DNA of 64,000 nt from Methanothrix harundinacea 6Ac. GTDB taxonomy: Archaea; Halobacteriota; Methanosarcinia; Methanotrichales; Methanotrichaceae. Position 1 is the stretch's first letter, and every line of letters starts with the position of its first letter. Of this stretch, positions 42,475 to 46,663 are shown piece after piece. Below the pieces are notes generated by a model. It ran no database searches. It saw only the letters and a program-made list of their open reading frames with translations, and had not been told where the DNA came from. The stretch covers positions 2,356,001 to 2,420,000 of the forward strand of contig NC_017527.1 in assembly GCF_000235565.1 (NCBI RefSeq). The letters are read 5' to 3'. A program made the position numbers and the translations under genes.

Positions 42475-42829
42475 GAGGAAGATCTCATCCCCGGCGCCGA
42501 TGGCGCCCATCGCCGCGACCGGCTCTGAGGGGGCGATTATTTTATAAAGTTAACAATATATTATAGTATTACATAATGAATTAATATGTTCTGATGAGCC
42601 ATATAAAGTAAAGTAAATAATCAAAAAAACAGAAAAGTATAACTAATACCTGCGCCCATCTTGTTTTGATAGATCTGGAGGATCCTCAGAGATCTTCAAG
42701 ATCTTATCGGAACAAAATGGAGCTGACTGAGTAGAAATAATGGAGATTCATTATAGCATGAGAAGGGCGTATCTCCATCTCTATTCTGATATCGGCCATC
42801 CCGAAGATAGAAGAAGGAGTTGAAATAAG
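42475..42829. other. AT-rich promoter region before the cysteine protease
   Basis: This 355-base gap begins with a GGCGCC-GAT-GGCGCC hairpin (42495-42509), a possible terminator for the helicase, followed by ~230 bases of strongly AT-rich DNA with several TATA-like sites (TTATTTTATAAAG near 42537). Its last part carries the ribosome site GAAGGAGTTG. The long leader is unusual beside the short leaders elsewhere. Confidence 0.5.
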
Positions 42830-44059
42830 ATGTCTTTAGAGGAGTTGAAGACGATAAGGGAGGAGATCAGCAAAAAGCTGTATCCGTGGTCAGCAGGAAA
42901 GACGTCCATCAGCGAGCTTTCTGACGACAAGAGGAAGGCGTACCTCGGCCTCGCGACGGACGAGAAAGATATGGCGATGATGGCCACGGCCCGGGTCGAG
43001 GAAGATGCCCTGATGGCTAGCGAAGGCCTCCGGTTCGCCTATCTCACCAGCTGGAACTGGAGGAACGTCGGCGGGGTCGACTGGACGACCCCGGTGAAGG
43101 ATCAGAAGGGGTGCGGCTCGTGCGTCTCCTTCGCCACGTCCGCCGTCGTCGAGGCGAACCTGGAGATATTCAGGCGTAACCCTTACCTGAACCCGAACCT
43201 ATCGGAGGCGGACCTCTTCTTCTGCGGCTGCGGCAAATGCTGCGCCAGCGGCTGGAACTTCCCTCCGGCCCTCGACTACGCCAAGAGCAAGGGGATCCCC
43301 GACGACGCCTGCTACCCCTACACCGATAAGGACCAGCCCTGCAAGCCCTGCGCCGACAGGGCGAAGAGGATCATAAAGATCCAGGGATGGAGATCCTTGA
43401 GCACCGCGTCCCAGGCGAAGGAGTGGATATGCAGACACGGCCCGGTGATCACGGGGATGGCGGTCTACACCGACTTCTTCAGCTACAGGGGCGGAGTATA
43501 CAGACACGCCAGCGGCCGCCTGGAAGGGTATCACGCCATAGCCGTCGTCGGCTACAGCGAGACCGAGCAGTGCTGGATATGCAAGAACAGCTGGGGAACC
43601 GGCTGGGGAGAGGGGGGCTGGTTCAGGATAAGGTACGGTGAATGCGGGATCGGCAGCACCTTCCCCTTCTACACCGTCGAGTTTCCGGCCCTCAACGACG
43701 ACGTGATCATGCCGAAGACCGGGAAGGTGGTGGCCAAGCTCAAGAGCAAATCCGCTGCCTTTGAGAACGAGTTCAGGCTCTACTCTCCGACGAACAAGCT
43801 GATATTCAAGGCGGCCGACTCTCAGGTGGGCAAGACCTTCGACGTGGGCACCTTCAGCGCAGGCCAGAAGCTGATCTTCGCCCTCAAGACCCCTGACGGG
43901 AACACCTACTACACCACCCACGCCTGGAACAAGGACGCCTGCGACCACGTCATCAAGGTGCAGACCGGCAACTACAAGTGGGAGCTGAGGTGGGAGGACC
44001 TCTACGGCCTCGGAGACCAGGACTACAACGACGTCGTGGCAGAGATCGAGATCAAGTGA
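42830..44059 (+). CDS. Papain-like (C1A) cysteine protease with DUF4114-like C-terminus
   Basis: The protein has 409 residues. The papain fold has DQKGCGSCVSFA (catalytic Cys98), GYHAIAVVGYS (His235) and CKNSWGTGWGEGGWFRI (Asn253). Gln92 forms the oxyanion hole. A Cys-rich insert FFCGCGKCCASG (130-141) and other Cys pairs suggest disulfides. The last ~110 residues end LGDQDYNDVVAEIEI, a DUF4114-type calcium-binding motif. No signal peptide or membrane anchor is evident, which is strange for such a domain. The ~80-residue N-terminal part may be a propeptide. The downstream gene encodes a chagasin-type inhibitor. Confidence 0.9.
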   Translation: MSLEELKTIREEISKKLYPWSAGKTSISELSDDKRKAYLGLATDEKDMAMMATARVEEDALMASEGLRFAYLTSWNWRNVGGVDWTTPVKDQKGCGSCVSFATSAVVEANLEIFRRNPYLNPNLSEADLFFCGCGKCCASGWNFPPALDYAKSKGIPDDACYPYTDKDQPCKPCADRAKRIIKIQGWRSLSTASQAKEWICRHGPVITGMAVYTDFFSYRGGVYRHASGRLEGYHAIAVVGYSETEQCWICKNSWGTGWGEGGWFRIRYGECGIGSTFPFYTVEFPALNDDVIMPKTGKVVAKLKSKSAAFENEFRLYSPTNKLIFKAADSQVGKTFDVGTFSAGQKLIFALKTPDGNTYYTTHAWNKDACDHVIKVQTGNYKWELRWEDLYGLGDQDYNDVVAEIEIK

Positions 44060-44127
44060 GGAACGAGGGGGGGGGCTTATATCCCTCCCTTCAACATTTA
44101 TTGGATTGTGGCAGGAGGGAGGCGCTG

Positions 44128-44415
44128 ATGAACCATGCCGAGGTGAAGGTTAAGGTGGCGGAGGAGTTCGAGATATCCCTGGAATCGGTCCCGACCACGG
44201 GATACGTCTGGGAGGCGAAGTTCGACGGGGAGATGATGAGGCTGAAGGATAGGAGCTTTCTTGCGAGCCAGCCCGGGGCGATCGGCGGAGGCGGCAACGA
44301 GATATTCACCTTCGTCCCCCTCCAGACCGGCGAGACGGAGGTCGCCATGATCCGAAAACGGTCCTGGGAGAGGGAGGCGGCAGAGGAGCGGACCTACAGA
44401 ATAAAAATAATCTGA
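44128..44415 (+). CDS. Chagasin-type (I42) cysteine protease inhibitor
   Basis: The protein has 95 residues from ATG 44128, with AGGAGG upstream. Inhibitory loop motifs are visible: VPTTGYVWEA (loop 4-type NPTTGY), the Gly-rich GAIGGGGNEIFTF and KRSWEREAAEERTYRI (RPW-like). Chagasin proteins block papain-family proteases by inserting these loops in the active-site cleft. The gene starts 68 bases after the papain-like protease, so a protease-inhibitor pair is likely. It lacks a signal peptide, like the protease. Confidence 0.85.
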   Translation: MNHAEVKVKVAEEFEISLESVPTTGYVWEAKFDGEMMRLKDRSFLASQPGAIGGGGNEIFTFVPLQTGETEVAMIRKRSWEREAAEERTYRIKII

Positions 44416-45492: not shown

Positions 45493-46494
45493 TCATCTCC
45501 CTCCACCCCAGTTGAGCCGCTCCGACAGCTCGATGACGTTCGTCCTTCCCCGTTCCTTCTTGGTCACGATATTCCGCCTCTCCAGGGAGACGATGATCCC
45601 GGTGAGGGAGGATTTGGGGATCCCCGTCTCGTACCTGATATCGGCCTGGGTCATCTTCCCCTCGTTCTTCATCAGCGCCTCCAGGACAGACCTCTCCCTA
45701 TCGGTGAGGGTATCCATCACCGCCGCCATCTCCCCCGAGATCCGAGCCCCCCCCGTGCCGGCAGGGGATGATCCGGGGTCCGGGGGCTCGGTGGGGGCTG
45801 AGACCGCCAGGGCCGCCCCGGACGCCTCCTCTGGACCGGCCCCGGCGGAGGCCTCCCCCAGCGGGAGGGGACGGGCCTTACCCCACCCCCCCAGGCTCGC
45901 GGCTCCGAGGACGGCGAGGACGACGATCACCGCCCCCGCCAGGAGGAGGCGGGGCCTGGAGGCCCCCACCGGCGGGAGGGATTCCACAGCCGCCCCCCCG
46001 CCGCCGACGGGCTGGCGGTACCTTATGGTGGCGGCGGGGCTCGATACGTCGTAGCCGTGGAACTCCACCAGGAAGGACTCGCTGGAGGAGGAGGAGACGA
46101 GGTAATCGATCCCCTCGGTGCCGGTGATGTTGGTGAGCTGGACCTTCTCCGAGAGGTAAAAGGTGACGTGATACTCGCCGTAGCTGCCAGCGGCGGATAG
46201 ACCGATCTCCCAGTCGTCCCCCCTCTTGGCGGTGAGGGAGTTGGTCACGGCGTAGAGCTGGCGGGCCTCCTCATCGTACTGGTATTCGGAACCGTTGAGG
46301 AAGGCCAGTCCGTCGATCCTCATGGCGTATCCCGTCACCAGGGCCTTGCCGGCGTCGTCGACGTAAACGTCCAGGACGAGCCCCGCCGCCTCGGAGCCCG
46401 CGGCCTCCGCCGCCCAGGAGCCAGAGCTGAGGACGGCTGCCGCGAATGCGAGGAGAAGCACAGGCCATCGGCAGAGCCCCATTATATCCGTCAT
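45493..46494 (-). CDS. Membrane-anchored wHTH regulator with extracytoplasmic domain
   Basis: The protein has 333 residues from ATG 46494 behind GAAGGATTTG. The order is a signal peptide (to about 30), an extracytoplasmic beta-domain of ~130 residues, one membrane helix (LLLAGAVIVVLAVLGAASL), a Pro/Ala-rich cytoplasmic linker and a C-terminal winged helix (TDRERSVLEALMKNEGKMTQADI and GIPKSSLTGIIVSLERRNIVTKKERG). The layout is that of a one-component sensor that binds DNA from the membrane, as in many archaeal predicted regulators. Its likely targets are the surrounding surface-protein genes. Divergent from the surface protein at 46664. Confidence 0.85.
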   Translation of the reverse strand: MTDIMGLCRWPVLLLAFAAAVLSSGSWAAEAAGSEAAGLVLDVYVDDAGKALVTGYAMRIDGLAFLNGSEYQYDEEARQLYAVTNSLTAKRGDDWEIGLSAAGSYGEYHVTFYLSEKVQLTNITGTEGIDYLVSSSSSESFLVEFHGYDVSSPAATIRYRQPVGGGGAAVESLPPVGASRPRLLLAGAVIVVLAVLGAASLGGWGKARPLPLGEASAGAGPEEASGAALAVSAPTEPPDPGSSPAGTGGARISGEMAAVMDTLTDRERSVLEALMKNEGKMTQADIRYETGIPKSSLTGIIVSLERRNIVTKKERGRTNVIELSERLNWGGGR

Positions 46495-46663
46495 CAAATC
46501 CTTCGCCAACCCCGATCCTGATCGGAATTTGGTGGCCGTATATATTTAAGATTTGGGAAGATCGAAATCGCCGCCGAAGGCCGTAACGGCGCCGGCCCCC
46601 CTCAAAAACTGACCCCGGGACGCATAATTCATAAACGATCAGGTCTAAATATGGACGTTCTAC

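Follow-up and report, generated by a model that had tools for sequence, protein, structure and literature searches.

Why would a papain-like protease that carries no signal peptide be encoded next to a chagasin-type inhibitor that carries none either? The question is raised by two adjoining genes in a 64,000-nucleotide stretch of the Methanothrix harundinacea 6Ac genome (hereafter the window), which a first-pass annotation had read as an enzyme and its self-protection factor. Here, we propose that the pair is quite likely to be a zymogen kept in the cytoplasm together with its linked safety inhibitor, that is, a stand-alone protease-inhibitor module. The proposal draws on computed domains, catalytic residues, predicted folds, recurrence of the pair, and agreement in signal status between its partners.

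A protease and an inhibitor 68 bases apart

The protease gene (positions 42830 to 44059, forward strand) has AAGGAG before its ATG and encodes 409 amino acids that match the C1A (papain) family profile over residues 74-277 (PF00112, 148.9 bits against a cut-off of 20.7). Its catalytic residues are intact: the same letter as in the window protease is found at Gln92 in 136 of 136 C1 domains, at Cys98 in 134 of 136, at His235 in 135 of 137, and at Asn253 in 136 of 137, counting only domains with a residue at that column and including the window protease itself. The Cys98 codon (43121 to 43123, forward) is followed by one for Val, at a position that Trp takes in many signal-bearing relatives; that of His235, placed by the C1 alignment, lies at 43532 to 43534, and that of Asn253, within CWICKNSWG, at 43586 to 43588 (both forward). 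The protein has no signal peptide, its frame being open for just 411 codons and closed upstream, which leaves no room for an N-terminal signal. Two further C1 genes lie elsewhere in the genome, in open frames of 880 and 901 codons, and both were scored as having a signal peptide.

Residues 1 to about 68 (42830 to 43033, forward), which include a WSAG motif, resemble the propeptide of cathepsin B. In the predicted structure (mean pLDDT 71.8, mostly good as far as residue 286 or so, with a poorly modelled tail), residues 1-40 have block means of 85-95, and the top matches are zymogens: Schistosoma cathepsin B1 (Z 30.6), rat procathepsin B (30.0), and its human counterpart (29.9). As procathepsin B zymogens align with the model from residue 1-2, the N-terminus is probably a propeptide, attached to a predicted papain fold. 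By sequence, the top match among solved structures is dipeptidyl peptidase 1 (cathepsin C), and the Pfam Propeptide_C1 profile was found in one of the 19 members of set A1 (relative L129, E 0.0014), at 18.5 bits, below its cut-off of 32.7. Procathepsin B, the best structural match (Z about 30), is matched along both its propeptide and its catalytic domain, and the window protease differs from it in having no signal peptide and an extra C-terminal tail. This tail (about residues 287-409; 43688 to 44056, forward), modelled with low confidence, was described at first pass as DUF4114-like, and the profile agrees, clearing its cut-off narrowly (PF13448, 29.2 bits against 27, residues 355-407, profile positions 29-83 of 85).

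The inhibitor gene (44128 to 44415, forward strand) follows after 68 bases, and the intact C1A protease with an I42 neighbour that had been annotated here is borne out by both profiles and by the catalytic columns. The 95-residue product, without a signal peptide, is matched by the chagasin-family profile (PF09394, 81.9 bits against a cut-off of 27.2). Chagasin motifs, NPTTG included, are named in the excerpted text of PMC5014320. The corresponding loops can be read directly in the window inhibitor, as had been noted for the outer two: VPTTGY (residues 21-26; 44188 to 44205) for NPTTG, GGGG (residues 53-56; 44284 to 44295) for GxGG, and KRSW (residues 77-80; 44356 to 44367, all forward), in which the RPW position reads RSW, with Ser for Pro. 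A chagasin fold is predicted, the model (mean pLDDT 88.1) aligning most closely in a structure search with EhICP2 (Z 13.2, rmsd 2.4 over 95 residues) and with chagasin 2nnr (Z 12.0, rmsd 2.2 over 94 residues). No second I42 was found in the genome (2,571,034 bases, two contigs), and an NCBIfam search at E 0.01 found nothing for either window protein.

From any start 5' of the I42 domain, the top hydrophobic stretch reaches 0.4, versus 2.3-3.8 in I42s scored as exported; together with the closed protease frame, this upholds the annotated lack of a recognisable export signal on both proteins. Two close relatives have an in-frame hydrophobic extension 5' of I42, with 3 synonymous and 8 non-synonymous changes. 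The dN/dS of this extension is 0.87, from few codons (about 20), against 0.17 for the inhibitor proper, and the window has no start that would yield it; weighed as a signal peptide, it is on these grounds probably untranslated instead. Compared with an 89%-identical relative, dN/dS is 0.13 for the protease and 0.35 for the inhibitor, and both genes look to be under purifying selection.

Between the two genes lies a TATA-like TTATAT (44077 to 44082, forward), inside the block TATATCCCTC, which is invariant across three related genomes, and a AGGAGGGAGG run stands before the inhibitor ATG. The TATA-like block may serve as a separate promoter for the inhibitor, and it may uncouple the two genes. 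Upstream of the protease, the 300 bases at 42530-42829 have 34% GC versus 60% for the window, with blocks conserved in two relatives, and are a possible regulatory region. On the reverse strand, 45493-46509 encodes a 338-residue protein that seems to begin with a signal or membrane segment and ends in a winged-helix domain (DUF7343/MarR type), possibly a membrane-bound regulator.

Recurrence and signal status across the class

How often are such genes neighbours? A search with a C1 family model covered 171 of the class's 237 genomes (outside it were 66, G092-G150 and G181-G187), and comparing the coordinates of C1 and I42 profile matches gave at least 30 pairs no more than 2 kb apart, with about one (1.05) expected under uniform placing, by which we rejected chance adjacency. 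The window's family contributes 14 pairs in 50 genomes (0.57 expected), genomes G001-G080 contribute 9 in 80 (0.07 expected), and at least 7 (0.41 expected) come from 41 further genomes (G081-G091, G151-G180), a batch selected chiefly for genomes already known to carry several I42s each. The 30 exclude L245, a fragmentary C1 gene with unread stretches next to an exported I42. The pairs span several C1 subfamilies and arrangements. In a gene-level set of 42 pairs, assembled from part of the class regions and from named loci and leaving aside a chance HMM match (L079, 9316), 33 pairs have I42 downstream of the C1 gene and 5 have it upstream, in both cases on one strand, and the remaining 4 are divergent. 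The triad of the signal-less paired enzymes is intact (Cys in 37 of 37, His in 37 of 38, Asn in 38 of 38). One pair from another C1 subfamily, at 3981581-3983072 of G151 (L255, G151:C1:3979500-3985500), has an uncertain I42 start.

The missing export signals had been called odd. They are instead usual for such pairs: by a hydropathy rule, not a trained predictor, 21 of the 30 class pairs have no signal on either partner, 5 have one on both (G206:C16, G227, G207:C210, G212, G167), 1 differs, and 3 depend on the choice of start codon. The differing pair, in G071, has a hydrophobic N-terminus on I42 only, which a later start would remove; the start-dependent I42 signals are those of G196, G198, and G151, the last hydrophobic only from an upstream TTG. 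Partners agree in signal status with Fisher values of 7e-5 without the three start-dependent pairs and 9e-4 counting them as mismatches, values that are not strict probabilities since the rows are related. Outside the class, a Kaistella locus (L137) is a further mismatch, with a lipoprotein-like I42. Within the window's family, export-type I42s make up 44 of 48 lone copies versus 7 of 15 beside C1 genes (Fisher 5e-4); the 48 leave out G191:C12, G221:C11, G222:C439, and G234:C48, and L233 is truncated where its contig ends. Exported pairs with hydrophobic N-termini on both protease and I42 are divergent in L110-L113 and on the same strand in L261.

Because missing signals are usual for such pairs, action inside the cell is the likelier of the two options that had been left standing; papain-type cysteines kept in bacterial signal-less relatives, and variable tails, leave room for the other, exit by a different route. 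Recurrence and the agreement in signal status make the reading as enzyme and self-protection factor a well supported one at the level of sequence, and the suggestion is borne out in part.

Homologous loci and the patchiness of the pair

A similarity scan of named genomes with the window protease gave 29 loci, which were selected by likeness to it and are not a random sample. Nearest is Methanothrix harundinacea UBA475 (89% identical). I42 adjoins 21 of the 24 signal-less homologues versus 0 of the 5 signal-bearing ones (L132, L147, L150, L152, L154). The 21 comprise loci from Thermoplasmata, Pseudomonadota, Nitrospira, Bacteroidota, and Cyanobacteriota, as well as the window's two close relatives. 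The other three of the 24 are L140, at a contig edge, L136, whose I42-like neighbour was grouped with the others by BLAST only, and L128, which has a frameshifted protease and no I42. Over the 29 loci, I42 is the sole widely common neighbour gene (17 by BLAST), the next families being common to at most 4, and none recurred past close relatives; a conserved operon with further genes was rejected on this ground. Single loci vary in their state. In Candidatus Methanocrinis natronophilus Mx (L127, 4995-6193) the protease is apparently frameshifted and I42 intact, and in a Methanotrichaceae MAG (L128, 4953-6222) the protease is likewise apparently frameshifted, with no I42 found adjoining. A cyanobacterial locus (L144, 2859-5780) encodes a 972-residue protein that has its C1 domain at the C-terminal end, and an I42 frame follows after about 240 bases.

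The pair, whose occurrence in other methanogens had been put forward as a check, is conserved in kind, but patchily. Of the 9 genomes of the window's genus, 3 contain it. Beyond the genus, ten homologues at 49-59% identity (L067-L076, e.g. G203, G190, G202) have no adjoining I42 in 8 of 8 testable cases, these being the ones with more than 3 kb downstream (G208 and G224 have less than 200 bases to the contig end), and the window clade sits beside these ten on the tree. In nine of the ten the DUF4114-type tail occurs in three tandem copies (one in the window), the tenth being cut by the contig end. In G191, which is more closely related (67-74%), the protease is frameshifted and no I42 adjoins it. 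One of the ten, G234, has a signal-less I42 among the nearest relatives of the window inhibitor, on another contig, so that the partners may be unlinked.

Does the signal go with the inhibitor once ancestry is considered? Among 138 C1 domains, 49 have a signal and no I42, 47 have neither, 38 have I42 and no signal, and 4 have both; 47 of the 85 signal-less domains thus have no I42. The tree omits C1 fragments below about 150 residues and duplicates (L126-L128), and some of its signal-less rows are contig-edge or mis-started genes (e.g. L102, L179). On a quick tree the signal-less-with-I42 label has to change 12 times, with at least 8 of these changes forced by starred branches, and independent pairs on the tree of 138 domains showed no significant link between signal absence and I42 (median p 0.63). 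Protease and inhibitor distances correlate over the 42 pairs (r 0.49, reached in 0 of 5000 shuffles); deep co-divergence was not found among 16 divergent representatives (r -0.04, 2822 of 5000 shuffles), and so partners may have been exchanged or acquired afresh.

A proposed safety catch and its alternatives

In light of these findings, what might the pair do? The cell would synthesise the protease as a procathepsin-B-like zymogen that lacks a signal peptide, with the N-terminal segment covering the catalytic domain and the DUF4114 domain probably targeting or tethering the enzyme. The co-encoded I42 protein would restrain any enzyme turned active in the cytoplasm, its VPTTGY, GGGG, and KRSW loops plugging the active-site cleft in the way that chagasin blocks cathepsins. 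On balance, proteins would then be cleaved only once there is more active enzyme than inhibitor, as there might be in stressed, dying, or lysed cells. Binding, zymogen activation, the trigger, and the substrates are the parts of this proposal that we infer. Against it speak the I42-less relatives, the missing deep co-divergence, the failure of the tree-corrected link to signal status, the change of Pro to Ser in RPW, and the TATA-like block.

Could the protease be a weapon instead? Released without a Sec signal, by lysis, in vesicles, or through an unlinked secretion system, it might attack neighbours via a variable tail while I42 guards the producer and its siblings. The protease and inhibitor are indeed constant and the tails are not: besides DUF4114, 10 scanned proteins (6 of them signal-less) include DUF346 in 4 and BTRD1 in 1, and L129 has a CFI-box tail. 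Bacterial signal-less homologues also keep their papain-type cysteines in 17-20 of 20 cases (C95 20/20, C138 20/20, C132 18/20, C171 17/20), at what we take to be papain positions 22/63 and 56/95, which are paired in papain; over all signal-less paired enzymes, however, they are less constant (C95 25/37, C138 26/32, C132 24/38, C171 18/37). A like idea has been put forward for protealysin-emfourin (PMC9505478, excerpted text). On the other hand, the only neighbour family that recurs past close relatives is I42, the best PADLOC match among four proteins has E 0.038, and a Variovorax homologue used as query matched none of 50,697 phage records and five, partially, of 72,556 plasmid records. By the last result we also rejected phage or plasmid cargo, and known anti-phage defence was rejected because neither window protein matched any PADLOC family at E 0.1. 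We consider such an effector and immunity pair unlikely.

Decidedly less credible is that I42 guards against C1 proteases from outside, those of competitors or grazers, with shared regulation as the only reason for its place beside a C1 gene. The bacterial I42 Cip1 of P. syringae does act on tomato proteases (PMC5014320, excerpted text), and I42 lies away from C1 genes in many class genomes; yet the window inhibitor has no export signal, in contrast to most lone I42s, and tight linkage to C1 genes is repeated. Least probable of all, and barely tenable to us, is a chance or inherited neighbourhood with no functional link: patchy pairing and the lack of deep co-divergence would fit it, but the excess of pairs over expectation, the linkage in several C1 subfamilies, and the forced label changes on the tree speak against it.

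A cytoplasmic enzyme with a safety inhibitor has parallels in known systems. As in the window, staphopain-staphostatin (C47) and SpeB-Spi (C10) link the gene of a papain-fold protease to a small one for an inhibitor. Staphopains and SpeB are secreted, and their inhibitors belong to families other than I42. The window module shares the linked signal-less inhibitor, and differs in that its protease is a C1A enzyme without an export signal by hydropathy and its inhibitor an I42 protein. The presumed targets of staphostatin/Spi-type inhibitors are protease molecules that become active too early, while still in the cytoplasm (PMC3462683, excerpted text). In protealysin-emfourin (M4), as in our reading of the window, an intracellular protease and its inhibitor share one operon (PMC9505478, excerpted text). 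Protealysin is a metalloprotease, and emfourin is from another inhibitor family. A role in interbacterial competition has been proposed for this operon (PMC9505478, excerpted text). Protozoan chagasin/ICP and endogenous cysteine proteases belong to the same inhibitor and target families as the window pair, whose genes, unlike theirs, adjoin, in archaea and bacteria, with both partners apparently cytoplasmic. By analogy, the window module is best read as a variant of the staphopain-staphostatin and protealysin-emfourin kind.

Intracellular peptidase inhibitors are described as rare, and the IPI gene as not near the subtilisin gene in completely sequenced species, in the excerpted text of PMC3901451; the bacterial I42 of PMC5014320 is secreted, according to its excerpts. 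Our search, by titles and abstract openings and without most subscription journals, found no report of C1-I42 linkage in prokaryotes. In the literature searched, in part as excerpts, one bacterial I42 is described as acting on proteases of a plant host, and for prokaryotic I42s no endogenous target is named.

Linkage to intact C1 proteases, along with agreement in export status, yields specific candidate enzyme-inhibitor pairs. A bolder and rather doubtful extension is that prokaryotes repeatedly built a cytosolic cathepsin and chagasin switch, a disulfide-capable zymogen held under an I42 lock, freed on lysis or oxidation and directed by exchangeable target-choosing tails, which would serve archaea and bacteria alike for self-sacrifice or as a competition weapon. 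The theme of an inhibitor encoded beside a papain-like protease, found in bacterial C10 and C47 systems, would in any case extend to apparently cytoplasmic C1A enzymes of archaea and bacteria, and the recurring pairs in both point to a built-in safety catch.
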